Origin: a virus
Virus record (IMG/VR): IMGVR_UViG_3300033233_000147
Location: 1 to 26,614 of that record
DNA length: 26,614 bases
Direction: 5' to 3' (one strand)
The notes below the pieces were generated by a model. That model did not search any database and was not told the DNA's origin. It was given only the letters and a program-made list of their open reading frames with translations. Below, piece after piece: positions 194 through 25,733 of this stretch (the first letter of the stretch is position 1; the number at the start of each line of letters is the position of its first letter). The position numbers were made by a program, and so were the translations under genes.

Positions 194-2617
194 CTAATAC
201 CATTCCAGGGCGCGGATCTCGGCCCGGCCCTGGTCTGTTTTGCGGAATGATTCGATAGAAAACTTTTTGGCGTCGTACAGCAGATTACCTATGTCGAAGG
301 TATTGCCGGTCACCAGGTCGAAGTGCTCCCAAAATACGGGGAAGACCACGATCAGGCGCGGAACCTTGCGCTGAAGCTTAATATGCGCGAGCACGTTATC
401 TGCCATGGCCTGCAGCCGTATGCATTCAAACTGCAGTTCAAGGGGATAGGTGCCGTACTTGGTTATCGAGGCGCTGTCGGCCGTTGCGCTGGTCAGCAGC
501 CATTCCGACTCGCTACCGAGTCGAGAGTATGACCTTTTGACTTTAGCGGTCAGATCGTTGGCGATATCGACCACCGGCGTCCGGTTGAATATAAACTTTC
601 CAAGTGGCTGAGCGATCTCTTCTTTCGTGATGGTCTTGAGTGCGGCCGGCGCGGTATCGGGGATGTAGTCCAGATACCATTTACCGGCAATGTACCTGAG
701 GGTCGAGCGGCATTCAAAGGCCATAAGCTTTAACCTTTCCCCCGGGCTGATCTTGTCGCCGATCCGGAAGCCGAACTTATACCCTCCGCTGACGGCGGCC
801 GCGTAGGCGGTACCTGCAGCGCTGAATGACGTGGCGTCAATCTCGCCGGTGGCAAAGTCCATCTCCCGGACCAGAAAGTGCTTGATCACCCAGTCCGGGC
901 GCTCGACCAGGTTGCCGCTGCCGCCATAGTTACCGTCGGGGTCCTGGTACCCGTCGACCACGGCATGGAAGCGATCGACCATGAAGGTGCCGACAACCCC
1001 GCCGGTAATTGCTACGGTACCGGACTTGCTGGCCGCTCCGGACTTTGCTGCTGATCCGGACTTTGAGGCTGTCCCCGTTTTGCTGGCAGAACCTGTTTTT
1101 GAGGCGCTTCCGGTTTTCGATGCGGATCCGGCTTTGCTTAATGATATAGGTCTAGTGCATTTCAGTACTGCGTCCTCGATGGTAAATTCGAAATACGAGG
1201 CATTAATTCCTGCTCCGGTCACTTGAGCAAAGAAAGGAGGGTTCCAGTACGTCTGAGACTTACGGAATGGGCTGGTAACCAGAGGCGTGATTTTGCCGGT
1301 TGTGTCGGCGGTAGCCACAGTCACGCCATCAATAATAAAGGACAATGTTCCGGTAGATGGACCCTGTGTGCATGAGATTAGAAACTTGTATTCAGTTTCA
1401 ATGTCACTCAGCGTCCCCGACGGTGCGGCAGGAAAAGATAAATACTGCTCAAAATCGTAAGCATTTGTCGGTGACCTCCTGTACATTGTACACGGGGTAG
1501 ATGTGGACAGCTTTTCTATCAGCTCGTTCGCCGCGGTTGAATAGCTAATGGTGTCGGAAACTCCAATGCCGTCACTGACGGCAATGCCATCATTTACCCC
1601 GATGCCGTCCGTCACGCCGATGGTGTCAGATACTCCTATCGTGTCGTTTACCGCAATTGTGTCTGTTACGCCGATGGTATTGCTCACGGGTGCCACGCTG
1701 ATGCTGGCGGTGGCACGCAGGAGGTGTTTGCCGCCGGTGTAGACTGCGGACACGCCGCTGGTGACGCGCAGGAGCTCGCCCTGGATCTCGGCATATATGT
1801 CGCCGACGGCCTTCAGTTCATGTGCGGCCAGCAGGCTGTCGTAGTTAGTCTGCTTCTGCCATACGGTTGCTCCGGATGCATGGGCGGTTGCCACTGTTCC
1901 GCTTGCGCCTCTGGTCACGCCGCTGAGGACTCCGGAAGTTATGCTGGTAAAGCTGATCTGTTCGTCGTCAAGATATATAGTCCCGCTCGCGGGAAAGCGG
2001 GTATATAGGCTCAGTTCTATGCCTGTGGTCTGGCTGTTGTTGATAGCGCCTTTCAGCGTCGTGCGCGCGCCCCAGTCTACGCGATGCGCAGGGACCAGCA
2101 CCCCAGATCCGTAGATGATCGGTTCGACCTTACCGACGTCCTCAAATGCATTGGGGTAAGCCGTTGTGTCAATAACAGGCTGTTTCCAAGCCCGCTCCAG
2201 TGCAGCAAGCCTTGATGACATCCTGCAGACAAACGAGGCCAGATCAATATTTTCCGGCTGGTCGAGGTTCCCGACGATGACAGTCACCGGGGTCCCCGTC
2301 GGGTTATATATTTGCTTTATAGTTGTTACAGCTCCCTCAAAAGGGTAGATCTCACCCATCTCTATCAAGAATGTTTTATCCTGAATCGGTTGATTCTTGA
2401 ATGTTATCGATATATCAGAGTTCAGGAATGTAGAGTCGATGCGTTTTACTTCGTCAGAGATCCCACTGACGGACTCGATGTAATCCTCATACACCTGAGA
2501 ACCGACCATAATATTCCTGTCGGACAAATAAAGAATCGGTCCGCTGTTTTTAAGGGCAATCTCAAAAAGATATATTGGGTCAAGGCGGCTTGAATCCAAC
2601 TCGCTGGTAAGTGTCAC
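194..2617 (-). CDS. Large tail protein, probable baseplate hub or tail-tip component
   Basis: This 807-residue protein follows the tape measure and a distal-tail-like gene, the usual place for the tail hub or tip protein of siphoviruses. The N-terminal part (MTLTSELDSS onward, with YLFEIAL and YLSDRN) and the C-terminal part (about residues 570 to 807, rich in short beta-strand patterns) look like phage tail-tip proteins. The middle holds two low-complexity arrays, seven units of (T/G)I(G/A)V(T/N/S)D and seven units of SK(T/S)G(S/T)A-type, separated by a globular stretch. The start is a GTG at 2617 overlapping the previous stop by four bases (GTGA), indicating translational coupling. Family assignment rests on position and general character, not on a motif I can name. 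Confidence 0.65.
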   Translation of the reverse strand: MTLTSELDSSRLDPIYLFEIALKNSGPILYLSDRNIMVGSQVYEDYIESVSGISDEVKRIDSTFLNSDISITFKNQPIQDKTFLIEMGEIYPFEGAVTTIKQIYNPTGTPVTVIVGNLDQPENIDLASFVCRMSSRLAALERAWKQPVIDTTAYPNAFEDVGKVEPIIYGSGVLVPAHRVDWGARTTLKGAINNSQTTGIELSLYTRFPASGTIYLDDEQISFTSITSGVLSGVTRGASGTVATAHASGATVWQKQTNYDSLLAAHELKAVGDIYAEIQGELLRVTSGVSAVYTGGKHLLRATASISVAPVSNTIGVTDTIAVNDTIGVSDTIGVTDGIGVNDGIAVSDGIGVSDTISYSTAANELIEKLSTSTPCTMYRRSPTNAYDFEQYLSFPAAPSGTLSDIETEYKFLISCTQGPSTGTLSFIIDGVTVATADTTGKITPLVTSPFRKSQTYWNPPFFAQVTGAGINASYFEFTIEDAVLKCTRPISLSKAGSASKTGSASKTGSASKTGTASKSGSAAKSGAASKSGTVAITGGVVGTFMVDRFHAVVDGYQDPDGNYGGSGNLVERPDWVIKHFLVREMDFATGEIDATSFSAAGTAYAAAVSGGYKFGFRIGDKISPGERLKLMAFECRSTLRYIAGKWYLDYIPDTAPAALKTITKEEIAQPLGKFIFNRTPVVDIANDLTAKVKRSYSRLGSESEWLLTSATADSASITKYGTYPLELQFECIRLQAMADNVLAHIKLQRKVPRLIVVFPVFWEHFDLVTGNTFDIGNLLYDAKKFSIESFRKTDQGRAEIRALEWY
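1013..1138 (-). repeat. Seven in-frame 18-base units encoding SKTGSA-like hexapeptides
   Basis: Reading on the minus strand from 1138, seven consecutive 18-base units encode SKAGSA, SKTGSA, SKTGSA, SKTGTA, SKSGSA, AKSGAA and SKSGTV. The units keep frame exactly and differ mostly at third positions. This suggests duplication followed by selection on the peptide. The product would be a flexible, basic Ser/Gly/Ala linker inside the large tail protein. Confidence 0.85.
1553..1678 (-). repeat. Seven in-frame 18-base units encoding TIGVTD-like hexapeptides
   Basis: From 1678 on the minus strand, seven 18-base units encode TIGVTD, TIAVND, TIGVSD, TIGVTD, GIGVND, GIAVSD and GIGVSD. The period is six residues with a conserved I-x-V core and an Asp at each sixth place. 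That fits a stacked beta-strand or solenoid-like element. The array has the same unit length and copy number as the second array in the same gene, but an unrelated sequence. Confidence 0.85.
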
Positions 2618-3354: not shown

Positions 3355-6300
3355 GCGGGCACCAGCTTTTTCTGAAGCGCCGAAAGGATCGGCGAGCGGC
3401 CAAAGGCGATATCGTCGGCAATCTGCTGCTGGATATCCCTACCCATGCCCTTGCCGTCTGCGCTATTGGTGGTGACATTGATCGGCCCGGTTATACTGAC
3501 AGACGGCCCGCCTCCGGCTCCCTGCTTCTGAAAATCGTTATACATATTGACCATCTGGCCCCAGAGGTTATTGCCCAGATCTTCGTACTGATACTGCTGT
3601 TTAACCCCTTCGTAGGATAGTCCGTTTAGGGACCCGAATTTATAGCTTTTTAATTCAGCTGCTCCACCAGCATACCGCTGCCAGTCGTTGGCCAACTGGC
3701 CGAACTTTACTGTATAGTCGCTGCCGGTCGGAAGCGATGTCATCATCTGCTTGATCTTGTTCATTCCCTCGGTAAAGGGGACGATAGGTGAGGCCTTAGT
3801 GAAATACTCTACCACGACCGACTTGTATGTCACCGGGGGGATCGCTTTGAGTTCACTGACCACATTTCTGATATTCTGTGTCGCCTTGCTAGTATCGATC
3901 ATCAGGATCCGCTGTTTTGCGAGTTCGTTGTCGAGATTGACGATCTGCCCCTGGTACATCTCGATCATCTCTTTCGCCTTGGACATAGCCGTTTCAAGGG
4001 CTTGTTTCCATGCTCCGATCTGATCTATTTCGGCCTTGCGTTTACTCTGCACTTGGTCAAAGGCAGAGCCTATTTCTCCTTGCGCCTTCGCTATATCTTC
4101 CATCGCTTTGCGCACTGCAGTCTCTTTATCAATAATCACTTTGTCACCGTCCATCACCGCATCAGAAACAGCTGAACGCTTAACCATCCAGTCGTTGAGA
4201 GCCTTAATCTTAGCCTCTCCATCAAGAGTCAGTGCGATCTGGTACTGTTGCTCTAGAATTTTGAGTTTATCGTAATATTTCTCCTCCTCGCCCATGAGCT
4301 TTTGCCGCAGACCGTTTTGAAGGTCGGCATAGGTATTCCACTGTTCGGCGCGCTTCACCTCAAGATCCGCCAGTTCCTTGGTTTTTGTCTTCATGTTTTC
4401 AGTGGCCGTATTGTGCGCTGTCTGCAGTATTGAATAATATTGCTGCCATGCAGCAAGCCGGGCGTTAGCCAAGCCTGCTTCTACTTTAAAAGCCTCCATC
4501 TGCGCTGCTGCAACTGCCTTCGGATCATTGCCAAGCCCCTTAGCGGCCTCAGCCAGCACCCTCTGCATCTCCTTTTGCTTCGCGAATACGGAATCGATCA
4601 CCCCGAGATATCCCTCGAGACCTGTCTTCATGACGCCTATGTTTTTGACATTATCGTCTATCCACTTTGAGTAGGCTGTGTCCCGCACCGATGCGAGATA
4701 AGATTGCATCGCGTTTTTCATGTCATCAATGTTCTTTACGTTTTCCTTCATGCCCGCTGCAAACTGCTCACCGCCGATCTTTAGCTGCTGTTTGCCGATA
4801 TCGTTGATGACTGATTCCATTTCCTTCAGAACCTTAATGCTTTCCTCAACGGCTTTTTTGCTTTCTTCCTGGGCATTAATAATGGTTCTGGTGTTTTTCA
4901 CCCACTTGCCGGTTGCCTCATCATATACCACCGACCCAGCCTTAACCGCCTCGTTAAAGAGTTTCATGGCCAAGGGGCCTTCAAACCCCAGTTCTTTGAG
5001 TTTCGTGTTATATTTTTCAGCCCGGGAGTTGAGATATTCCTGCTGAACAGCGTTATCCTTCAGCAGCTTATTTACGCCATTCATTCCCGACAGGTCCCAA
5101 CCAGACAGTCTATACACCACTTTATCCAGCCACTTGAATAACTCATAAGCCGCAAGCCCGGCTGCCACAGCCACTACGACAAACCCAGCCGGGCCCAGTG
5201 CCGCCACCGACATGCTACCCACGTTGGCAAGTATCCCGGGGAGTGCGGACAAGCTGCTGCCCAGCCCGGTGATTCCCGCGATCGCTGAGGCGAAAGACAT
5301 ATTTTTCAGAGTGTTAAACCCTGCAATAAGGGTTGGGAACATATACCCCGTCGTGCTGACTGCAGTGATTCCGTTAAGGGCGGAGGTTATAGCTAAAATG
5401 GTTGCCGGAGCCTGTATAAACGCAGTTGCCCCCAGCAATATTATCAGCTTATCGAAATGCTCTGCGAATAACTTTATGGCAGTTATACCCAGGGTGACAC
5501 CCGAGGCTATTCCAGCCGCCCACTCCTTTACCTGAGCGCGTCCGACAGCCGTCTCCATTTCTTTGAGCATGCCCTTTAGGCTGTTTGTCAGTTCAACAAC
5601 AATCACCGACAGCGCAGGTGTAAACATCTCCCCGAACTTTGCCTTTAAATCCTCCAGTGGACGGGCCATAGACGTAAGTTGCTTGCCGACTGTGCCCATA
5701 GACGCCTCGTATGTGCCTGCGATGGTCTTGCCGGCCTCCATAACAACATTTGTCCTGGCCTGAGTTTTCTCTTGCTCAGACAGATCAGCAGTGTTCTTAT
5801 TCAACTGTTTTGCGAGGGAAGCATAAGAGGCCTCGAAGTTCACGTTTATGCCCATGGTTCTTAGCACTTCGATCTGGCCGCTCTGGATGCCATAGATCAG
5901 CCGTTGCATTGCCTCTGAGGAGTTGATGTTAGCAATAACAGCGGCATCCTGTGATATACGGGCAAGCTTTGTAGCCTGGGACATATCCATATGGGCCTGC
6001 ATCATCTTGACCACGGCATCCTTTGACTGTAACGAGGTGATACCCATTTCTTTAATACTGGCCGCAAGATTATCGGTTTGTGTGGCTGATAGGTCAGCAG
6101 TTTTACCTACGGTATGCATTACTACGCTCATAGACTCTGATCTCGCCGCCAGCAGCGTTGATTCTGATATAAACGCAGTAACTTCACTCTTGAGTTTCCC
6201 AATGGCGCTGATGGCATATTCCACCGCCCGGGCACCCAACATGCCTTCAAAGAATGCGACAGCCTGTGATTTAGCCGAGCCACATGCGCTGCCAAAGGAA

Positions 6301-8575: not shown

Positions 8576-8782
8576 CTAGTTATCCCTCCTTTTCTTTTTG
8601 GTGTCCGCAGGGGAAGTCCCCTCCGGTACCGGTTCCTCTGTTTCGATTGGCTCACCGGGCCGCGCAAAGATTTTTGGATCGAACTGTCCTGCCTCGATCT
8701 CGTACCCTTCGCCTTTTTTTAGGTCCAGTCCGCTTTTGTCGCACCTGCCGTTAATCCTTGCCACTGCAATCATCCTTGCCAT
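8576..8782 (-). CDS. Small hypothetical protein before the tail tube gene
   Basis: A 68-residue protein with a strong ribosome site (AAAGGAGG upstream of the ATG). It has a compact N-terminal half (MARMIAVARINGRCDKSG, GEGYEIEAGQFDPKIFA) and a Pro/Glu/Lys-rich tail ending KKKRRDN. Its stop directly abuts the tail tube start. In this position other phages carry small head-tail joining or decoration factors, but I see no diagnostic motif. Confidence 0.6.
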   Translation of the reverse strand: MARMIAVARINGRCDKSGLDLKKGEGYEIEAGQFDPKIFARPGEPIETEEPVPEGTSPADTKKKRRDN

Positions 8783-8799
8783 ACAGCCTCCTTTTTGGT

Positions 8800-9660
8800 T
8801 TATAGATCCCTGGTCGCAGTTATCTTCGTGACCAGATGGTTTACGTCCCTGGTATAGCTGACGCTGTATTTCGCGACCAGCCCCGTCACCTTGTCATGCA
8901 TCTGCGCATGTGTCCTGGAGTCGTACAGATACATGATTGAGGACATCTTCATGTTCTGGCCGTCATAGGTAAAGTCGTCCTCAACCTGATTTTCCTGGTT
9001 AAGTCCAAGGCCGCGCAGCAGCGTATCCTCAGACGCCGGGGAGGCGGGCAGCAGATCCGTCTTTGCCTTGATGGCGTTTATTGTGGTGCCCGTCGGCAGC
9101 GCGTCTACCGAGGCCTGTGACGCCGCTGTCATTGCCGCATTGTACGAGACCGAAAGCGAATACCCGCTTTTATCGGTAACGGAATTGACGGCGTACCCGG
9201 TTTTGTCGTTATTCGTCCCGACCGTGACCGGGCTGGTGACGCTGCCTACGCTGCCGGTGACGGACGCAACCGCCCCGCCGGCATAGGTTGACCGCGAGGT
9301 CACTGCCGCGTCTATCCTTGTTTCAAACGGTTCCCAGACGTACATCCAGTACCAGGTGTCGCTGCCCTTTGTGCAATAGCACCAGGCACGGTATTCGAGC
9401 GTGGAGTCAAGGGTCCCCGTGTACGAATAGACATATTCGGACTTCCCGTGCGCCGACGGGTCCGCGATCTCGGTCATTGCGCCGGTACCCAGAGTCAGCA
9501 CTGTTGTAGGCGTAACCCCGCTGAGGCTCACGACATTCACCCCGCAGGAGGCACCTGACGCCACGCCAGGGCAGCTGATCAGTTTTGCTGCCTCCCCGCT
9601 GCGCAAGTCCGCAAACTGGCAAGCAATCAGACACAGTGCGATGAGAATCAGCCGCCTCAC
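8800..9660 (-). CDS. Secreted phage structural or host-interaction protein with signal peptide
   Basis: A 286-residue protein beginning with a clear signal peptide: basic MRRLILIALCLIACQF, then a polar stretch ending in EAA. The mature N-terminal half has paired cysteines and many aromatic residues. A central region (GGAVASVTGSVGSVTSPVTV, then NNDKTGYAVNS) matches the repetitive linkers common in phage tail fibre and appendage proteins. The C-terminal part (YLYDSRTHAQMHDKVTG, ending TKITATRDL) looks like a fibre-end domain. The GTG start overlaps the previous stop as GTGA. A cytoplasmically assembled virion would not normally need a Sec signal, so location and role are open. Confidence 0.6.
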   Translation of the reverse strand: MRRLILIALCLIACQFADLRSGEAAKLISCPGVASGASCGVNVVSLSGVTPTTVLTLGTGAMTEIADPSAHGKSEYVYSYTGTLDSTLEYRAWCYCTKGSDTWYWMYVWEPFETRIDAAVTSRSTYAGGAVASVTGSVGSVTSPVTVGTNNDKTGYAVNSVTDKSGYSLSVSYNAAMTAASQASVDALPTGTTINAIKAKTDLLPASPASEDTLLRGLGLNQENQVEDDFTYDGQNMKMSSIMYLYDSRTHAQMHDKVTGLVAKYSVSYTRDVNHLVTKITATRDL

Positions 9661-9929
9661 TGTATCACCACCGCGCCCTTTATAGTTACGGTACCGTCCG
9701 CTGCGATTGAGGCCACAACATCCCCCGAGCTGTTCTTGATCTGCAGTTTTACCGTTGATGCCGCCTCGGTCGGGCCCTGATTTATCGTGAGAACGGCCCC
9801 GTCAGTAGAGGTCTGCAACTTATACAGGATCTCGCCCTGGGTATCTGTCTGGACGCTTTCAATTCCTGCGATGGCAATAGAGCAGACGGCTGCCAGGATC
9901 AGAGCGACAAGCAAAACTTTTAATCTCAT
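9657..9929 (-). CDS. Small secreted beta-rich protein
   Basis: A 90-residue protein with a typical signal peptide (MRLKVLLVALILAAVCSIAI, then an A-G cut region). About 65 mature residues follow, including a simple beta-hairpin repeat (VKLQIKNSSGDVVASIAADG, then TVTIKG). That ending resembles the short coiled or beta repeats that trimerise in tail appendage stalks. It is coupled to both neighbours by overlapping start and stop codons. No known family is recognised. Confidence 0.6.
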   Translation of the reverse strand: MRLKVLLVALILAAVCSIAIAGIESVQTDTQGEILYKLQTSTDGAVLTINQGPTEAASTVKLQIKNSSGDVVASIAADGTVTIKGAVVIQ

Positions 9930-10135
9930 TTGAGGCCCCCTGTTTTGGTTGTTGCAAAGGTTTTAAAGCGCACGAAGGTGGACGCACCGCTTGTTATCGT
10001 CGACACCGGAAAAGAGTTCCGCACAGGCATGACACCGGCATAGTAATTCAGCCATGCAGGCTGCGTGGGCTGGCTATCAGCAAAAGCAACTCCGGTCATC
10101 AGAATCAAAAAAATCAGGGTCACAAGTTTCTTCAC
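9926..10135 (-). CDS. Small secreted protein
   Basis: A GTG at 10135 follows GGAGG at nine bases and gives a 69-residue protein starting MKKLVTLIFLILMTGVAFA, a textbook Sec signal peptide with an AFA cleavage site. The mature part is about 50 residues, rich in Thr/Ser/Phe (PVSTITSGASTFVRFKTFAT). A longer frame with an ATG at 10144 overlapping the previous stop is possible, but its ribosome site would be too close. It is the first of three consecutive genes with signal peptides. Function unknown. Confidence 0.55.
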   Translation of the reverse strand: MKKLVTLIFLILMTGVAFADSQPTQPAWLNYYAGVMPVRNSFPVSTITSGASTFVRFKTFATTKTGGLK

Positions 10136-10140
10136 GGCGA

Positions 10141-10596
10141 TCATCCTCCCGCGTATTGACAATCAAAGTTGGTTTGAAATTCGACACCGTAAACGGCCCG
10201 GCTGTCGTCTATGTACACAAGGCTGACGCGTGTCAGTGTTAGTTTCTCTATTTCAAGCCCCAAGGTTCTGTTCGTGAGAACCTGCAGGATATCCTTTACG
10301 ATTTTATATGCGTCTTTTTTTGCATCATCCCGAGACCGCGCATTTTCAGCCGCCGCGAGGATCCGGAACTGGGGCTGGAAGTTATAGTTAAGCTCATCCT
10401 GTTTTTCAGCGGGCATATCCCCCAGGATGGCAAACACTGCAGGGAAACTCACGGCCATTCTCTGCAGGTCCTCCTCGGAAAATCCCTGGCCGGCATAGTG
10501 CTCACACGTGGCGATGTATGTCATATCGGGCGCGCCCTGGAGGGTCGGGGTCTGCAGTTCCTCAAGAATCTTGTTTTCAACGTCTTCGAAGTCCAT
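10141..10596 (-). CDS. Mu gp37-like neck protein (DUF1834)
   Basis: This 151-residue protein has the features of the Mu gp37/DUF1834 family: an N-terminal MDFEDVENKILEELQTP-like helix, a central stretch about partial-order conditions and resampling (FPAVFAILGD), an alpha/beta part with KKDAYKIVKDILQVLTNR, and a beta-strand ending (VYGVEFQTNFDCQY). Family members usually follow gp36 (DUF1320) and are thought to be head-tail joining or tail-end proteins. Here about 3.7 kb containing the retroelement separates it from the gp36-like gene. The start has GGAGGAG upstream. Confidence 0.7.
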   Translation of the reverse strand: MDFEDVENKILEELQTPTLQGAPDMTYIATCEHYAGQGFSEEDLQRMAVSFPAVFAILGDMPAEKQDELNYNFQPQFRILAAAENARSRDDAKKDAYKIVKDILQVLTNRTLGLEIEKLTLTRVSLVYIDDSRAVYGVEFQTNFDCQYAGG

Positions 10597-10608
10597 GCCA
10601 TCTCCTCC

Positions 10609-10728
10609 TTAATTTACCCCTGCCAGCGCGAACACCAGCAGGATGCAACCCATTGCTACCGTGAACAGCACTGCGTAATAGACCACTATTTTCAGCCCGC
10701 CCTCCCAGTTAGGGAAATCTATATGCAT
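10609..10728 (-). CDS. Tiny single-pass membrane protein
   Basis: An ATG at 10728 with a perfect ribosome site (AAAGGAGG, five bases before) opens a 39-residue frame: a short polar start (MHIDFPNWEGG), then one long hydrophobic segment (IVVYYAVLFTVAMGCILLVF) and ALAGVN. The stop lies 12 bases before the next ATG. The size and single transmembrane helix suggest a small inner-membrane peptide. Tiny proteins like this are often missed; the ribosome site and tight spacing are the main evidence that it is real. Confidence 0.65.
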   Translation of the reverse strand: MHIDFPNWEGGLKIVVYYAVLFTVAMGCILLVFALAGVN

Positions 10729-10738
10729 AGGGCCTCCT

Positions 10739-11053
10739 TTATGAAAACGTGTAGTACCTGTCGATCTTTTTGATCGTTGTCAGGAATGGAACTTCGGCCT
10801 GGTACCTGTGTATTTGGTCCGACAGGATGACTGAGCCGGTAAAAAGGATATACGTGCGGCCGTCGACCTGGAATTGCAGGGTCAGGCACTGGGCCTTATC
10901 GTCCTGCTTTTCCTGTTTGAATCGACTGGTGCGGATCTTCAGGCCGGTTATTAATATCTCCCGGTTCAGTACATCGTCTATGCGCATCTTAGCGCCATCG
11001 AGCGGCAGATTCTCTTTGTCGGCAAAGTCGCTGAAGCGCTTGACGTTATCCAC
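10739..11053 (-). CDS. Small protein coupled to the DGR reverse transcriptase
   Basis: A GTG at 11053 with GGAGG seven bases upstream overlaps the last eight bases of the reverse transcriptase gene and gives 104 residues. The protein is beta-rich: RIDDVLNREILITGLKI, a polar loop, LTLQFQVDGRTYILFTGS, then PFLTTIKKIDRYYTFS at the end. This pattern is reminiscent of small OB-like phage proteins, but I cannot name a family. It does not look like Avd, the helical-bundle accessory factor of many DGRs. Its tight coupling to the reverse transcriptase makes it a candidate accessory factor. That is inference from position. Confidence 0.65.
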   Translation of the reverse strand: MDNVKRFSDFADKENLPLDGAKMRIDDVLNREILITGLKIRTSRFKQEKQDDKAQCLTLQFQVDGRTYILFTGSVILSDQIHRYQAEVPFLTTIKKIDRYYTFS

Positions 11054-12053
11054 GGCAGGCCTCCAGCGTCTGGTCGATATCAAGGGACAATGCCAGGTTA
11101 TGGGTGTTCGCCCACTTCAGCCAGCCCTTCATGGCTGCTACTGATGATCGCACCTGGTCGGCTGACAGACGGCCCGCGGCCAGGAGATACGGCAGCATCT
11201 TCAGTCGTCGCTTCATGCGGATCGCGGTGCTCTTGCGCAGCAACAGATAGCCGTGAAAGTGCTTGTACCCGAGGAAGTCCAGTCCCTGGGAAACAGGGAA
11301 CAGCTCGCACTTGCTGAGGGTAAACTTCAAGTGAACAGCCAGATATTCTTTGATTGCAATCGCTTTTTCGCGCAGCCAGCGTTTGTCGTTATGGAAGAGT
11401 ACAAAGTCGTCGCAGTAGCGGATGTAATTCCGAACCTTATGCTGGTGCTTCAGGTACTGGTCCAGCTCGTTCATATAGAGATTCCCGAACCACTGGCTGG
11501 TATAGTTGCCGATCGGCACGTTCTTGCCGTCCTGGACGCTGTAGATGATGTCTTCAAGCAGTCTTAACGTCTCAGGGCATTTAATCTTGCGCTTGACGAT
11601 GGCGAACAGCACGTCATGATCCACCGAGGGGTAAAACTTGGATATATCGCACTTCAAGACGTATTTGTTCGAGCGCAGGAACTCCATGGCTCGGCGGCTG
11701 CCGGCGTGGATCCCTTTGCCCTTGATGCAGGCGTATGAATCAGCTATGAACAGCCTGCTCCAGATCGGCTCCAGCACATTCATGATGGCGTGCTGCACTA
11801 TCCGGTCAGGGGCGAACGGCAGGATAAAGATCGTGCGCTTTTTTGGCTCGGTTATCTCTTTGGTCCTATACGGTGATGTATGGAACTGGCCGGAGAGCAG
11901 TGTTTGCTGTATGGCCTGCAGATTGTCCTCGACGTTTAAGGCAAAGGCCTTGATATCGCGCTGCCAGTTTTTCCCCTTGCTGGCGTTGCGATAGGCCAGA
12001 CGGAGGTTATCCATGCTGGTGATCTGTTCAAAGAGGTTGCCGTGTCTTTTCAT
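11046..12053 (-). CDS. Diversity-generating retroelement reverse transcriptase
   Basis: A 335-residue reverse transcriptase of the DGR class. It would copy the template-repeat RNA into cDNA with errors at adenines. Visible motifs in order are KKRTIFILPFAPDRIVQHAI (71-90), the first catalytic Asp in CDISKFYPSVDHD (Asp136), IGNYTSQWFGN (181-191), which is the DGR-type motif, and the active site YCDD (213-216). SKCELFPVSQGLDFLGYK follows (247-264). Length and the absence of maturase or endonuclease domains separate it from group II intron enzymes. All catalytic residues are present, so it should be active. The ATG lies 118 bases past the template repeat; its ribosome site is unusual and is described separately. 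Confidence 0.95.
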   Translation of the reverse strand: MKRHGNLFEQITSMDNLRLAYRNASKGKNWQRDIKAFALNVEDNLQAIQQTLLSGQFHTSPYRTKEITEPKKRTIFILPFAPDRIVQHAIMNVLEPIWSRLFIADSYACIKGKGIHAGSRRAMEFLRSNKYVLKCDISKFYPSVDHDVLFAIVKRKIKCPETLRLLEDIIYSVQDGKNVPIGNYTSQWFGNLYMNELDQYLKHQHKVRNYIRYCDDFVLFHNDKRWLREKAIAIKEYLAVHLKFTLSKCELFPVSQGLDFLGYKHFHGYLLLRKSTAIRMKRRLKMLPYLLAAGRLSADQVRSSVAAMKGWLKWANTHNLALSLDIDQTLEACRG

Positions 12054-12060
12054 GATAATT

Positions 12061-12105
12061 GAGGCAGGTGACGTTCGCCGGGGCTACTGACCACCTGCCT
12101 CCTCC
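12061..12105 (-). promoter_or_regulatory. Hairpin between the ribosome site and the RT start codon
   Basis: In the transcript, a GGAGGA at 12105-12100 overlaps the foot of a perfect 10-base stem (12092-12101 with 12061-12070; 21-base loop). The reverse transcriptase ATG follows seven bases after the stem. Without folding, the ribosome site is more than 40 bases from the ATG; with the stem looped out, GGAG would sit about seven bases away. The same stem lies in the spacer between TR and RT, a region that in BPP-1 is part of the structured template RNA. Either role is inferred. Confidence 0.5.
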
Positions 12106-12170
12106 GTAATGCATTCTGCCTTTCGGCAAGGCCAACAGATCCAGCCAGGAGTTTAACTCGACACCCTGTA

Positions 12171-12284
12171 TCCGCAGCGAAGCGCCTGCCGATATTCGTA
12201 TTCGTATTCCAGCGATAGTTATTCGCATTCCGGCCACGGGAACCGCAATTCGTCCCGTTATTCCAATTTAAGCCGGCAAGCAGC
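12171..12284 (-). repeat. DGR template repeat (TR)
   Basis: This 114-base non-coding copy matches the variable repeat at 12361-12474 in 102 of 114 positions. On the minus strand it reads as a run of Asn codons (AAY) at the places where the target protein varies. TR has 28 adenines on the sense strand; 12 are changed in VR (7 to G, 4 to C, 1 to T). None of the 86 other bases differs. It lies between the target gene and the reverse transcriptase. Confidence 0.97.
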
Positions 12285-12350
12285 CCCTGATCTGTCAGCC
12301 CAAACAAAAGCGCTGCGCGCCCCGTTTTCTTTTTCCGCGCCCGTGCCACG

Positions 12351-13865
12351 TTATACTGGCTCCGCAGCGAAGCGCCCGCCGATATCCGTAGTCGCAGCCC
12401 AGCGATAGCTATTCGCAGTCCGGCCACGGGAACCGCAATTCGTCCCGCTAGCCCAATATAAGCCGGCAAGCAGCTTCACATCACCGTTTGTGCCCTGCCT
12501 GTATATAGAGCCTTTAGCCCCCGGAAGGTCATAATATGCAAAACCCTGGCTGTTAAGAGCGAGGTCCAGAGACTGATCAACGCCGCTTGCGTTATTGGCC
12601 TCGAGGCGGTTATCAGCTCCGTCATCGTAATACAGAGCTACGCCCAGGCTGTTCGCTGTGGCGGAATGCTTGACCTGCAGCATATAGGCGGGGTTATTAG
12701 TCAGGATAAAAACGTCCTTTGCAAATGCGGTGTTATTAACCAGCAGTCGTGCAGGCTGTGTGGCGTCGTCGTCGAAATACACGGGCAGTCCGCCCGTGGC
12801 AGCTGCGGCATCGTGCTTGATGTTGACCTTGTAGTTTGCGGGACCCACGAACTTATCGGCAGTCGCAGCGGCCATGTTGCAGCAGAGGTATGGCACCGCG
12901 CCGTCCCACTTCATATATATCGGATTGCCCCCGGGTACTGCAGCGCGGGTTACGGTAAAGGTGAGTGCTGCCGCCTGGACTGATCCATCAGGATCGCAGC
13001 GGAAGCCCTGCTCGTCCAGCCACTGGTGCATGGCTCCGCAGGCATCCTCCACACCGAAATTGCTGATCATGCGACGACTGGCAGTGTCTACATGCCCGCC
13101 GGTGGTGACGGGATCAGCGCTGCCGAAAATGTTGGTCTCCTCGTTCGACCCTGCAGCCATCCGCTGGAATTCATAGTCACGGAGGAGACGTTTTTTGACG
13201 GCAGCCCCATCGTCCACAAAACTCATCCAATCGCGGGTGTCGCTGATTGTGGCGTTGAATACTGAGGCTGTGGCGGCTCCGGTGCCGGATGCAAGGTATA
13301 TATCTACCCATTTGCCGATTTCATCGACATAGACCATACCAGCAGGAGTTGCCTCACGAGGCTTGTGTTTGAGATCCCAGATAGAGGCGGGGAGAATATC
13401 GCCGGTGAGGAAACCGGTCAGTGTATGCCCGGCGATCGTACCGACTGACAGGCATAAGCAGTGGAAGCCGGCAATCTTGCGGGAGGTGCTGGCCGTGTAG
13501 CCTGCGGGGGCGGTGCTATTTGCCGAAATGAGGATCTTCGGAGCTGCGCCTGTCTGCTGACAGGCGTAGATATAAAAGTCCTTGCCGGCCCGCGTTGCGG
13601 CTACCGTGTAGTCCACAGCAATCGAATCCCAGTTGGCGGCGAGTGACAGATCAAGGGTCTGTTGAGATTCCAGGACAAAACCCCGTTCGGCTATGTTTAC
13701 GGTCAGGCGGTTAGGGCTTAATGCCGAATATCTGTCGGCTGCGACAGCAGATCCCTTTAGACTCCACTTCTCGGACCGTTCGTAATGCGCAGGCAGCGCC
13801 GCTACCAGCGCGGCAAATGACTGCCCGCCATCAGCTTTGTGCCATCCTGACTTTTCGCCGGCCAT
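12351..13865 (-). CDS. DGR target protein with C-type lectin fold, likely receptor-binding
   Basis: This 504-residue protein ends in the variable repeat. The C-type-lectin signature of DGR targets is visible: SRRMISNFGVEDACGAMHQW (264-282), then KGSIYRQG (451-458) and the hypervariable LLAGLYWASGTNCGSRGR region. Unlike compact family members, about 150 residues lie between these two parts; they contain a tandem pair of related segments (YKVNIKHDAAAATGGLPVYF and YMLQVKHSATANSLGVALYY). Residues 1 to 250 form one or more N-terminal beta-rich domains, probably for virion attachment. No signal peptide is present. The ATG lies one base after the previous stop, with GAGGTG upstream. Its likely role is binding a variable ligand on the host surface, like Mtd of phage BPP-1. 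Confidence 0.9.
   Translation of the reverse strand: MAGEKSGWHKADGGQSFAALVAALPAHYERSEKWSLKGSAVAADRYSALSPNRLTVNIAERGFVLESQQTLDLSLAANWDSIAVDYTVAATRAGKDFYIYACQQTGAAPKILISANSTAPAGYTASTSRKIAGFHCLCLSVGTIAGHTLTGFLTGDILPASIWDLKHKPREATPAGMVYVDEIGKWVDIYLASGTGAATASVFNATISDTRDWMSFVDDGAAVKKRLLRDYEFQRMAAGSNEETNIFGSADPVTTGGHVDTASRRMISNFGVEDACGAMHQWLDEQGFRCDPDGSVQAAALTFTVTRAAVPGGNPIYMKWDGAVPYLCCNMAAATADKFVGPANYKVNIKHDAAAATGGLPVYFDDDATQPARLLVNNTAFAKDVFILTNNPAYMLQVKHSATANSLGVALYYDDGADNRLEANNASGVDQSLDLALNSQGFAYYDLPGAKGSIYRQGTNGDVKLLAGLYWASGTNCGSRGRTANSYRWAATTDIGGRFAAEPV
12361..12474 (-). repeat. DGR variable repeat (VR) at the 3' end of the target gene
   Basis: VR encodes residues 464 to 502 of the target protein. 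Ten residues differ from the TR translation: Asn470Tyr, Asn472Ala, Asn473Ser, Asn483Thr, Asn486Ser, Asn490Ala, Thr491Ala, Asn492Thr, Asn494Asp and Arg497Gly. The last 16 bases (12361-12376) are GC-rich and identical to TR, which fits the initiation-of-mutagenic-homing end. The stop codon follows two codons later. Confidence 0.97.
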
Positions 13866-13866
13866 G

Positions 13867-14271
13867 TCAGTTGCACCTCAGCTTGATGCTCGCAACAGTG
13901 CCCGAGGTGATCGTGCTGGTCACATATATTCGGGAGCTGTTGCCCGCGAACTCGTATTTCAGCGTCTCAGCCGTGGCCGATGCGATTCCGACTCCGTCGA
14001 TCTGGGAGACGACCTGCCCGTCGTCGTTGATTGTGAAGGTAATACTGACGGTCGCGCCGGAGGTGGTGAGGATAAGCGCCTTCGGCCCGGTACAGTACTG
14101 CACGTTCACAGCTGTATCGCTGGCCCCGGTAACTGTCTGACTGGTGGCCAGAGTCCATTCATATGCCGTGCCTTTGCCCGCTGGGTTTACGTCCCTGGGC
14201 TCGACATCAGCAGCAAAAGCTGCAGACGCCGTAAGTATCAAAGCCAAAATTATCAGCTGTATTGTCTTCAT
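13867..14271 (-). CDS. Secreted protein upstream of the DGR target
   Basis: A 134-residue protein with a clear Sec signal peptide (MKTIQLIILALILTASAAFA, cut after AFA). The mature part of about 114 residues is rich in Thr, Ser, Val and Ala with alternating strand pattern (ALILTTSGATVSITFTINDD, and RIYVTSTITSGTVASIKLRC). This composition is like head decoration or tail-ornament domains. It lies one base from the target gene, so the two are probably co-translated and may act together. I do not recognise a family. Confidence 0.65.
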   Translation of the reverse strand: MKTIQLIILALILTASAAFAADVEPRDVNPAGKGTAYEWTLATSQTVTGASDTAVNVQYCTGPKALILTTSGATVSITFTINDDGQVVSQIDGVGIASATAETLKYEFAGNSSRIYVTSTITSGTVASIKLRCN

Positions 14272-14693
14272 TAAAAGCCCTCCATTTTCTCCCGGGTGAA
14301 AGCCCGGTCTGATTCTTCTTTGTTCGTCTCTGCGCCGCCTTCGGTAGGCGCTGCCGGCGCGGGATCCACGCCGAGTGTCTTGAGGCCCTTGGCGATGTCC
14401 TTCAACTGGCTAATCGCTTTGTCATAGCGTTTTTCGATCTCCTCAGGCACCATACGGCGCTTGTAGAGGTTGTATATCCAGATCTCCAGCGACAGGCGTT
14501 TGACCTCGGCCGGAGGCGTTGCAAACGGCACGGAATAAAGCTTCCCGCAGTAGCTGTCCACCTCGACGTCGGCATTCTCGCCGCATTCGGTTGCGCGGGG
14601 CTCGTTGAGCGTGCCGAGCTTTTCATCATCCGTGAGCTGGATGATCTTCGTCTCTGGCAGCTGCCCTTTTAATTCGTTAATGGTGTTGTACAT
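14271..14693 (-). CDS. Mu gp36-like head-tail connector (DUF1320)
   Basis: A 140-residue protein matching the pattern of Mu gp36/DUF1320. It has an N-terminal LTDDEKLGTLNEPRATECGE segment, where the helix-forming INELKGQLPE and Asp/Glu-rich parts correspond to the family core. DVEVDSYCGKLYSVPFATPP and a helical RLSLEIWIYNLYKRR follow, with a low-complexity Pro/Ala/Glu tail. Family members are head-completion or connector proteins encoded after the capsid gene. The stop overlaps the next ATG by one base. The ATG has AAAGGA upstream. Confidence 0.8.
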   Translation of the reverse strand: MYNTINELKGQLPETKIIQLTDDEKLGTLNEPRATECGENADVEVDSYCGKLYSVPFATPPAEVKRLSLEIWIYNLYKRRMVPEEIEKRYDKAISQLKDIAKGLKTLGVDPAPAAPTEGGAETNKEESDRAFTREKMEGF

Positions 14694-23874: not shown

Positions 23875-24312
23875 CTAGAACGTTGCCCGTATGATCGAGA
23901 CGATAAACCCCGCATCGATCTTACCGGTCCGGAAGTCGTAGAGGGGCATGATGCCGAATGCGGGATTGATCACGCCTGCCGTCCATTGTCCGCCGAGCCG
24001 CGTCACGAGCTTCGGAATATTTAACATGGGCCCCGCGCCGATAAAGACGGCCCCGGAGTTTGTCTCTGTCTTCTGAGGCGCAACGGCCTCGATCCGAAGG
24101 GTCAACAGTCCGTCGTACATCTTCGCGATGTCCGTACCGACGCCTACGGCAAGGGCCTTGCCCCTGATCAGATACGCAGTATCGCCCTGGAGGTTTATGC
24201 CTGAGAGCTGCAGCGCGTCGTCAGGGGTTGCTGGAGGAGCGTCTGCGGCTAAAACCGGAATGCTCATCACCATTACTGCCAGAACTGCGAATAACATGAG
24301 AAATTTTTTCAT
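23875..24312 (-). CDS. Secreted hypothetical protein
   Basis: A 145-residue protein with a strong signal peptide (MKKFLMLFAVLAVMVMSIPV, cut near LAA-DA). The mature part has alternating hydrophobic strands (TAYLIRGKALAVGVGTDIAK, and GAVFIGAGPMLNIPKL) and ends FIVSIIRATF, with a terminal Phe. A terminal aromatic residue and amphipathic strands are features of small outer-membrane beta-barrels, but the protein is short. The ATG overlaps the previous stop (ATGA). The role in the lysis block is unknown. Confidence 0.6.
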   Translation of the reverse strand: MKKFLMLFAVLAVMVMSIPVLAADAPPATPDDALQLSGINLQGDTAYLIRGKALAVGVGTDIAKMYDGLLTLRIEAVAPQKTETNSGAVFIGAGPMLNIPKLVTRLGGQWTAGVINPAFGIMPLYDFRTGKIDAGFIVSIIRATF

Positions 24313-24929
24313 TTGATCTCCTTGTCTGAATCCCAGATTAAGATAGTGGAGCCACGCTCCATGGTTTTATAGATGCCGGTCGGGCTGATATACGGCCTGC
24401 CGAGTCCGGCCAGATCGTCAAGCCTTGCGCCGATACGATTTTCAACGTCAGATTGATAAACGAGCTCGGAGCAATACAGGGTTTTAACGCCAAGATCAAA
24501 TAGGTAATCGTAGTGACAGTCCGCAAACGTCAGGCAGTTGCCTATAACCGTTTTCAGGTAGGCATCGTCCCAGGCGGGGCAGCGCAGGATGACAACCCGG
24601 TCCGCCTCTTTGCATATGTCGAAAAAGGTGGACCTGGTGAAATCTGTGTGGGTCATCTCCGCAACGTCGAAATCAGTGCCTTTGTCGATGCAGAGAGCCG
24701 CGTGAGAAAATTCCCCGGGGATCAGCAGCGTCGTCAACTTTTTCCTGTCCAGGGCAAGGAGTATATCTCCCGTCCGCAGCAGCTCATAACCCCGGCGATA
24801 CTTCCAGCCGCGCATTGAGGTGTAGTAAGTCGTAAAGCGGACATACGGAATTACGCGCCTCAGCAGCCACGTGTAGAACTGTGTCTGCATCAGCCAGAGG
24901 ATCAATCTGCGACGAATAAGATTAAGCAA
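24309..24929 (-). CDS. YiiX/YebB-like papain-fold (NlpC/P60 superfamily) hydrolase
   Basis: A TTG at 24929, with AAGGGG seven bases upstream and overlapping the previous stop, gives a 206-residue protein. ATG 24950 is possible but lacks a ribosome site. An N-terminal hydrophobic or amphipathic stretch (ILWLMQTQFYTWLLRRVIPY) may attach it to membrane. The fold signature follows: LLRTGDILLAL, then FSHAALCID with the His, and LYCSELVYQSD with the probable Cys nucleophile. This His-before-Cys order is that of permuted papain-like enzymes of the YiiX group. Members cleave amide bonds in peptidoglycan or lipid substrates; the substrate here is not predictable. It sits in the lysis block. Confidence 0.7.
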   Translation of the reverse strand: MLNLIRRRLILWLMQTQFYTWLLRRVIPYVRFTTYYTSMRGWKYRRGYELLRTGDILLALDRKKLTTLLIPGEFSHAALCIDKGTDFDVAEMTHTDFTRSTFFDICKEADRVVILRCPAWDDAYLKTVIGNCLTFADCHYDYLFDLGVKTLYCSELVYQSDVENRIGARLDDLAGLGRPYISPTGIYKTMERGSTILIWDSDKEIK

Positions 24930-25233
24930 CCTGCTTCCCCTTGACTGCATTGATGAGCTTGGCAACAACGCCGTAGACCGAGAGCGCTGCACCGTATACT
25001 GTGCCGGCGACCGCCGCGATCTGAGTGACGCCGTCCGTCAGGATTGTCATGTCAGATGCATTGACGGTCACACCGGAGCCGATCGCAAGCGCACCTGACG
25101 CCAAGGCGAGGACTGCACCGATAAAGGTCCTCTGCAGATAGAGCGGCCTCTTTGCCAGGCCTGCAGCTTTGACCTCGGCGGATACGTTTTGAAATAAACC
25201 AGCTAAGGGCAAATACTTCAGTAATTTAAGCAT
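24922..25233 (-). CDS. Holin-like small membrane protein
   Basis: A 103-residue protein with two hydrophobic segments: TFIGAVLALASGALAIGSGV and GVTQIAAVAGTVYGAALSVY with GVVAKL. A short linker separates them and the C-terminus is basic (NAVKGKQVA). Size, topology and place among lysis genes fit a two-helix holin that lets the transglycosylase reach the cell wall. The ATG overlaps the upstream stop (TGATG) with GGAGG before it. No sequence family is named, so the holin call is by topology. Confidence 0.6.
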   Translation of the reverse strand: MLKLLKYLPLAGLFQNVSAEVKAAGLAKRPLYLQRTFIGAVLALASGALAIGSGVTVNASDMTILTDGVTQIAAVAGTVYGAALSVYGVVAKLINAVKGKQVA

Positions 25234-25733
25234 CAGATTCCTCCTTTTTTGGCTTTAAAGAGAACTGGTTTCCAAAAGGCATAATAGAGCGAGGCGTGCC
25301 CGTACTCGACAGCCTCATCATATGCCGCGTCGATCTCCCATCCATTGACGCGCGTGCGATACTCCGCCACGGCGAAACCGGTGCGGTCCTTACCTCGCCG
25401 GCAATGGATGAACGTCTTAACACCGGGATCGCTGATGATGTCGGCGACAATATTCCTCAGCGTCTCGGACCCGGGACGTATGAACGGAGATTCAGAAAGC
25501 GGATAGTGATGGAAGATTAAGCCGTGCGCCTCAGCGTACTGTTTTTCGGCCTCGACAAATTCGTTTTGTTCTTCCAGATTGAGGATCTTATCGAACTGTA
25601 AGAGTTGTGAAAGGTCGGACTGCCGACTGCCGCGCCACAGATTACCGTCAACGTGTGCGATATAATCACTGGAGCTGACGGAAGCGCAGGCGCTGAGGAT
25701 AAGCAACAGCATCGTGAGCAGTGCTTTTTTCAT
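25233..25733 (-). CDS. Lipoprotein dual-specificity/tyrosine phosphatase
   Basis: A 166-residue protein. Its first 16 residues (MKKALLTMLLLILSAC) are a lipoprotein signal with lipobox LSAC at Cys16, so it should be anchored in the envelope facing the periplasm. The rest is a cysteine-based phosphatase: GNLWRGSRQSD near the start and the catalytic loop HCRRGKDRTG with nucleophile Cys111 and Arg117 (C-x5-R). This family removes phosphate from protein tyrosine/serine or small phospho-compounds. The ATG overlaps the transglycosylase stop as ATGA. A periplasmic phosphatase inside a phage lysis cluster is unusual; a role in the envelope during lysis or lysogeny is inferred. Confidence 0.8.
   Translation of the reverse strand: MKKALLTMLLLILSACASVSSSDYIAHVDGNLWRGSRQSDLSQLLQFDKILNLEEQNEFVEAEKQYAEAHGLIFHHYPLSESPFIRPGSETLRNIVADIISDPGVKTFIHCRRGKDRTGFAVAEYRTRVNGWEIDAAYDEAVEYGHASLYYAFWKPVLFKAKKGGI

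Follow-up and report, generated by a model that had tools for sequence, protein, structure and literature searches.

The window, that is, the whole stretch of 26,614 nt of viral DNA that was analysed, contains the genes and repeats of a diversity-generating retroelement (DGR), all of them on the same strand (Table 1). Read 5′ to 3′ on that strand, a target gene carrying the variable repeat (VR) at its 3′ end is followed by the template repeat (TR), a structured spacer RNA and the gene of a reverse transcriptase (RT). A further gene, encoding 104 amino acids, was absent from an earlier note on this DNA, which also made no mention of the structured spacer RNA, the lack of Avd or the missing hairpin after VR. 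The gene starts with a GTG at position 11053, overlaps the RT stop codon by 8 nt and has a GGAGG upstream, and it is kept in relatives whose other neighbour genes are not.

Table 1. Features of the DGR locus and the evidence on which each was assigned
Feature	Position	Strand	Evidence
Candidate accessory gene, 104 aa, predicted OB-like fold	10739..11053	-	GTG start; beside RT in relatives; model pLDDT 89
DGR reverse transcriptase, 335 aa	11046..12053	-	RVT_1; PHROG 1423 E 1e-123; PDB BPP-1 RT E 1.6e-58; tree
Structured spacer RNA between TR and RT	12061..12151	-	Covariation
IMH*-like TR 3′ end, ...GCGGATACAG	12166..12189	-	Comparison with relatives
TR	12171..12284	-	Direct-repeat search; TR/VR comparison
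Target gene, 504 aa Mtd-like tail protein, C-terminus encoded by VR	12351..13865	-	Pfam mtd_2nd E 1.1e-18; PHROG 11262 tail protein E 6.6e-54; PDB Mtd E 1.7e-15
IMH-like VR 3′ end, ...GCGGAGCC	12358..12379	-	GGAGCC, kept across relatives
VR	12361..12474	-	12/114 mismatches against TR, all on TR A
Target insert, ~145 aa, residues ~292-440, between Mtd-like part and VR	12546..12992	-	phmmer domain coordinates

Repeats, reverse transcriptase and target protein

The comparison of the two repeats gave the result described in the earlier note: TR and VR differ at 12 of 114 positions, every mismatch falls on one of the 28 adenines of TR, and the 86 non-adenine bases are unchanged. The probability of such a distribution by chance, which had been bounded at about 5 in 10^8, was 5.5e-9 when calculated hypergeometrically, an order of magnitude lower. 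Ten residues are altered between TR and VR (N to Y, A, S, T, S, A, T and D; T to A; R to G), again as reported. An independent search for direct repeats ranked the same pair first in the region (119 nt, 88% identity), and the window contains no third copy of TR, since all 86 non-adenine bases were matched at TR and VR only and the next best site matched 42. The 3′ ends of the repeats are distinct, VR having GGAGCC where TR has GGATACAG; this difference, of the kind that separates IMH from IMH*, is conserved across relatives. VR and TR are 76 nt apart in the window and less than 150 nt apart in most relatives. The window shows no stem of at least 6 bp with a loop of 3-8 nt between VR and TR, and we found no clean hairpin following VR.

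The RT retains the catalytic and DGR motifs previously listed, namely D136, YCDD at 213 and IGNYTSQ (GNYTSQ at 182). An RT of a group II intron or a retron lying beside an unrelated repeat is a scarcely conceivable alternative. The NCBIfam group II RT model does score 123 bits on this protein, under its cut-off of 300; yet among solved structures the BPP-1 DGR RT is far the best match (201.6 bits; the top score of a group II intron RT is 76.2, and the retron Ec83 RT scores 22.6), and the repeat with adenine-only mismatches adjoins the RT gene. Moreover, a tree of 102 RTs places the window RT among DGR RTs and the group II introns apart, whereas retrons, which have no RT among its rows, are excluded by score alone. 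In this quick tree, which has some long branches and whose deep joins are tentative, the window RT belongs to a starred clade of 85 rows and adjoins a locus of a Nitrospirae MAG (L083), while the Avd-bearing set formed by BPP-1, BalMu-1, VP58.5 and Ideonella clusters together with moderate support.

Residues 86-287 of the target protein align by sequence with Mtd crystal structures, and a fold model built without alignment had a pLDDT of 36. Judging from sequence, the target probably adopts a lectin fold and is a probable host-binding tail protein, which would bind a ligand. The adenine-only mismatches, the DGR-type RT, its position in the tree, the Mtd-like target and the distinct IMH and IMH* ends all support the reading of the locus as a DGR. 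In many relatives residue ~291 of the target joins ~441 directly, and the insert between them is present in some (phmmer domain coordinates). By eye, this insert seems to consist of repeated beta-rich units.

The spacer between TR and RT folds into a structure common to 28 sequences, comprising 26 pairs with 94.9% of the cells paired. The structure consists of a closing helix (CUCC/GGAG), a pair of inner hairpins and one long hairpin, whose AGUAG/CGAA internal loop is visible by eye in ANMV-1 and BalMu-1 too. Compensatory changes occurred in 15 of the 26 pairs, amounting to 124 compensatory cells as against 41.6 in shuffles (0 of 500 reaching that number) and at most 46 when the structure was slid. 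The long hairpin, which immediately precedes the start of RT, holds most of this covariation. A search of Rfam gave no hit. As a side observation, the conserved GGAG of the spacer RNA, which pairs with CUCC, could double as the ribosome-binding site of the RT gene, acting across the long hairpin, and folding of the spacer might control RT translation.

Diversification in this phage and its relatives

Eighty viral and 23 genome loci with a related RT were collected, giving 104 RT loci with the window included. The adenine-only TR/VR pattern was present in about 75 of the related loci. Nearly all loci with both repeats in view had it. Automatic TR/VR picks in L002, L003 and L087 were spurious repeats within the target gene and were left out of these counts.

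The earlier note had asked whether VR is identical in related phages. We found that VR differs between close relatives and that it does so at TR adenines. Two records (L013 and L014) have identical RT genes (980/980 nt) and identical TRs, and their VRs differ at 20 sites, 20 of which are TR adenines. Likewise, VR mismatches fell on TR adenines in 16 of 16 cases between L004 and L096, whose TRs are identical, in 17 of 17 between L049 and L052, whose RTs are 99.8% identical and whose TRs have 5 differences, and in 16 of 17 between L059 and L060. The small gene downstream of RT is present in L013, L014, L049, L052, L004 and L096, and Avd in none of them. Two other pairs (L018/L019 and L029/L030) have identical VRs, which is what clonal records, or records assembled more than once, should give, and the VR differences between L075 and L076 were not counted because they coincide with 8 Ns. 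Since VRs differ only at TR adenines where RT and TR are identical, the DGRs of close relatives are, on this sequence evidence, active.

A near-identical copy of the phage was not found, as 25 kb of the window had no megablast match among annotated phages and the exact TR/VR core had no match in IMG/VR. The DGR of this phage is itself probably active. Alternatively, it might be decayed or recently silenced, with TR and VR as relics and an RT that no longer works in this phage, a situation that we regard as very unlikely. In its favour, no classical hairpin was found after VR, and derivatives with a deleted RT exist among the relatives. However, the perfect agreement of TR and VR at the 86 non-adenine bases, the intact RT with its catalytic residues and the intact spacer RNA and IMH/IMH* ends argue against decay.

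The RT-deleted derivatives are three viral loci in which a deletion took RT and the 5′ part of the small gene (L138, 2770-3237; L137, 2791-3207; L139, 2962-3111). What remains is the target, VR and, at most, a portion of TR. Outside a deletion of ~1.36 kb, whose junction shows an 8-nt overlap, L138 has 98-99% identity with L052, and L139 matches L130 at 90% with a 4-nt overlap at its deletion junction. These look like phages in which diversification was lost.

The small gene beside the reverse transcriptase and the absence of Avd

No Pfam family was assigned to the small protein of the window at E 0.001, and among 61 members of its family there was one marginal match only. Half of the members matched PHROG 19665 (function unknown), and no PDB chain matched the family by sequence. 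An AlphaFold2 model built from the 61 sequences had a pLDDT of 89 and a pTM of 0.75, and its elements follow the order b1-b2-b3-a-b4-b5, which is that of the OB fold. Foldseek searches against viral models returned, with good support, neighbours that include several phage SSBs and DGR-type RTs. Matches against the PDB were weak, none reaching E 0.001, and were headed by RuvB-like proteins of INO80/SWR1 and by HIN domains, both of which contain OB folds. The small protein is thus predicted to be an OB-like barrel and, as OB-type folds usually bind nucleic acid, a role together with TR RNA or cDNA is a reasonable inference from the model.

A profile search detected the OB gene in 81 of the 104 RT loci, a proportion that describes this clade rather than all DGRs, as the loci were defined by a search with the window RT. 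The gene lies nearly always directly after RT, and precedes it in L089 and L099. When the small protein alone was used as query, 35 viral loci were found, 34 of them in DGR cassettes. RT is directly upstream in 31, several of which are contigs also reached by the RT search; three (L137-L139) are the recognisable cassettes with RT deleted and the small gene truncated, and the last (L140) is a short partial match close to a contig end. Whole-genome searches found exactly one copy in 16 of 17 host genomes. Because each genome has a copy beside its RT, this single copy is the one of the DGR, and in the Nitrospirae genome this was checked by coordinates.

The OB gene had no match in a supported subclade of 8 tree rows (L042, L053, L054, L057, L058, L063, L064 and L068) nor at single loci such as L018, L069, L077, L079 and L086, among others; where checked, it was not found elsewhere on these contigs, which are incomplete. 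L058-L060 of this subclade lack the OB gene and still show adenine-directed VR divergence, and hence not every DGR of this type requires it. Some backgrounds would either do without the OB protein or have something unseen in its stead.

Two observations concern the surroundings of this gene. In L033 (6988-9897) it is split by an insertion of ~2.5 kb, its pieces lying at +988..1119 and +3679..3897 from the RT start. In addition, an uncharacterised gene (MKGFPK...), here called type B, occurs in 73 of the 104 RT loci (for example, L002:3875-4228) and is absent from the window. It is usually placed after OB or before the target, and in L079 its frame is continuous with RT. The idea that type B replaces OB was dropped, given that type B is also found adjoining OB or upstream of the target.

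With respect to Avd, a four-helix-bundle protein, a profile built from five reference sequences, including that of BPP-1, recovered all five reference Avd genes; in the 104 RT loci, to which the window belongs, it matched no ORF. The gap between VR and TR, in the window and in most relatives, is too short for avd. The earlier description of a complete DGR consequently needs to be amended: the DGR is confirmed, but its cassette has no Avd, the canonical helper, and holds instead a small gene unrelated to it.

We consider it fairly probable that the window carries an adenine-directed, Mtd-like diversifier of an Avd-less clade, in which, we propose, the OB protein takes Avd's accessory place. Reverse transcription of TR RNA would introduce errors at adenines, and VR would be replaced by the resulting cDNA, so that the C-terminus of the Mtd-like receptor-binding protein is diversified. 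In its putative accessory role the OB protein would bind RT, the structured spacer RNA or single-stranded cDNA. Rather unlikely, in our judgement, is that the DGR is an ordinary one in which RT and spacer RNA suffice and the OB gene is a passenger of the cassette, such as a replication or repair protein. This would agree with the continued activity of the OB-minus relatives and with the behaviour of type B, which also travels with these cassettes, shifting position, and so shows that hitch-hiking genes exist here. A passenger, however, would be expected away from DGRs too, yet all but one of the viral homologues are in a DGR cassette and host genomes have a single copy; and whereas the place of type B varies, that of OB, overlapping or abutting the end of RT, is conserved across phyla. 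These features speak for the proposed accessory role.

Comparison with known systems and phage context

The locus shares with BPP-1 (mtd-avd-TR-brt) the order target, VR, TR and RT on one strand, the adenine-specific mutagenesis, an Mtd-like target, IMH and IMH* ends and an RNA spacer between TR and RT (PMC12875486). In contrast, BPP-1 has avd between VR and TR, where the window has its 76-nt gap and no Avd was found, and the window has the OB-like gene after RT. In BPP-1 the folded spacer brings in the RT-Avd complex and serves to prime cDNA synthesis, and a stem-loop after VR is important, albeit not essential (PMC12875486); that stem-loop is clean in BPP-1, while none was found in the window.

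The closest DGR that we found is the phage or prophage locus L083 of Nitrospirae MAG WY3.bin163, whose RT is 72% identical over 328 aa. It has in common with the window the OB gene and the flanking phage genes, and differs in an extra type B after OB. A homologous small gene, annotated 'hypothetical protein', also lies directly after RT in ANMV-1 virus and in Methanosarcinales virus vir525, which, unlike the window, are archaeal viruses. The ANMV-1 repeats are of 114 bp, like those of the window, and the vir525 RT is 60% identical to the window RT. Paul et al. 2015 label an Avd in ANMV-1 (PMC4372165); our Avd profile matched no ORF in the ANMV-1 stretch scanned.

The crAss-like phages LMMB and cr7_1 had no match to the Avd profile either in the stretches scanned. 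Among the crAss-like DGRs (LMMB, cr7_1 and cr55_1), some have an extension of RT, in contrast to the separate OB gene of the window. This C-terminal extension is colinear with the OB family at an hhalign E of 0.005 and a probability of only 7%, and cr7_1 RT is among the Foldseek fold neighbours of the OB model. That the extension is a fused relative of OB is suggestive only and, given the 7%, was not accepted as a proven fusion. Small ORFs overlapping the RT end in crAss-like cr50_1 and cr10_1 and in Vibrio VP58.5 had no match to the OB profile. More tentatively than the accessory role in the window, we suggest that OB may represent a second, unrelated class of DGR accessory protein, replacing Avd across a large phage and prophage clade of bacteria and archaea and fused to RT in some crAss-like phages.

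We found no description of an Avd-free DGR with a linked OB-like gene in the literature searched. According to a 2023 paper, an earlier survey had put forward a single protein associated with DGRs that has no attribution in Pfam or CDD (PMC10053308); the survey is presumably Wu et al. 2018, and its unnamed protein may be the OB family. The main text of Roux et al. 2021 does not mention Avd or accessory genes (PMC8144416). We regard the DGR itself as one of many, and its lack of Avd together with a linked OB-like gene as the apparently new part of it. Almost all that is known of DGR mechanism, to our knowledge, comes from a single Avd-dependent system. A large clade, apparently active, that lacks Avd and has another, tightly linked small protein offers a natural comparison for the step served by the accessory factor, be it RNA recognition, priming, cDNA protection or strand invasion. 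In addition, targeted protein diversification might be done more simply with such a cassette, which is compact, free of Avd and equipped with a well-defined spacer RNA.

Tail genes neighbour the DGR, as do genes for portal, protease, major head and gp36, which make up a Mu-like head module; the phage is best taken to be a tailed one whose head module is of this kind. Flanking structural genes at 8576-14693 of the window are common to L083, and sequence kinship suggests a Nitrospirota host. Near an endolysin-like gene, the window also encodes a predicted tyrosine/dual-specificity phosphatase (25233-25733) and a C92 peptidase of the YaeF/YiiX type (24309-24992), which together are unusual cargo for a phage.
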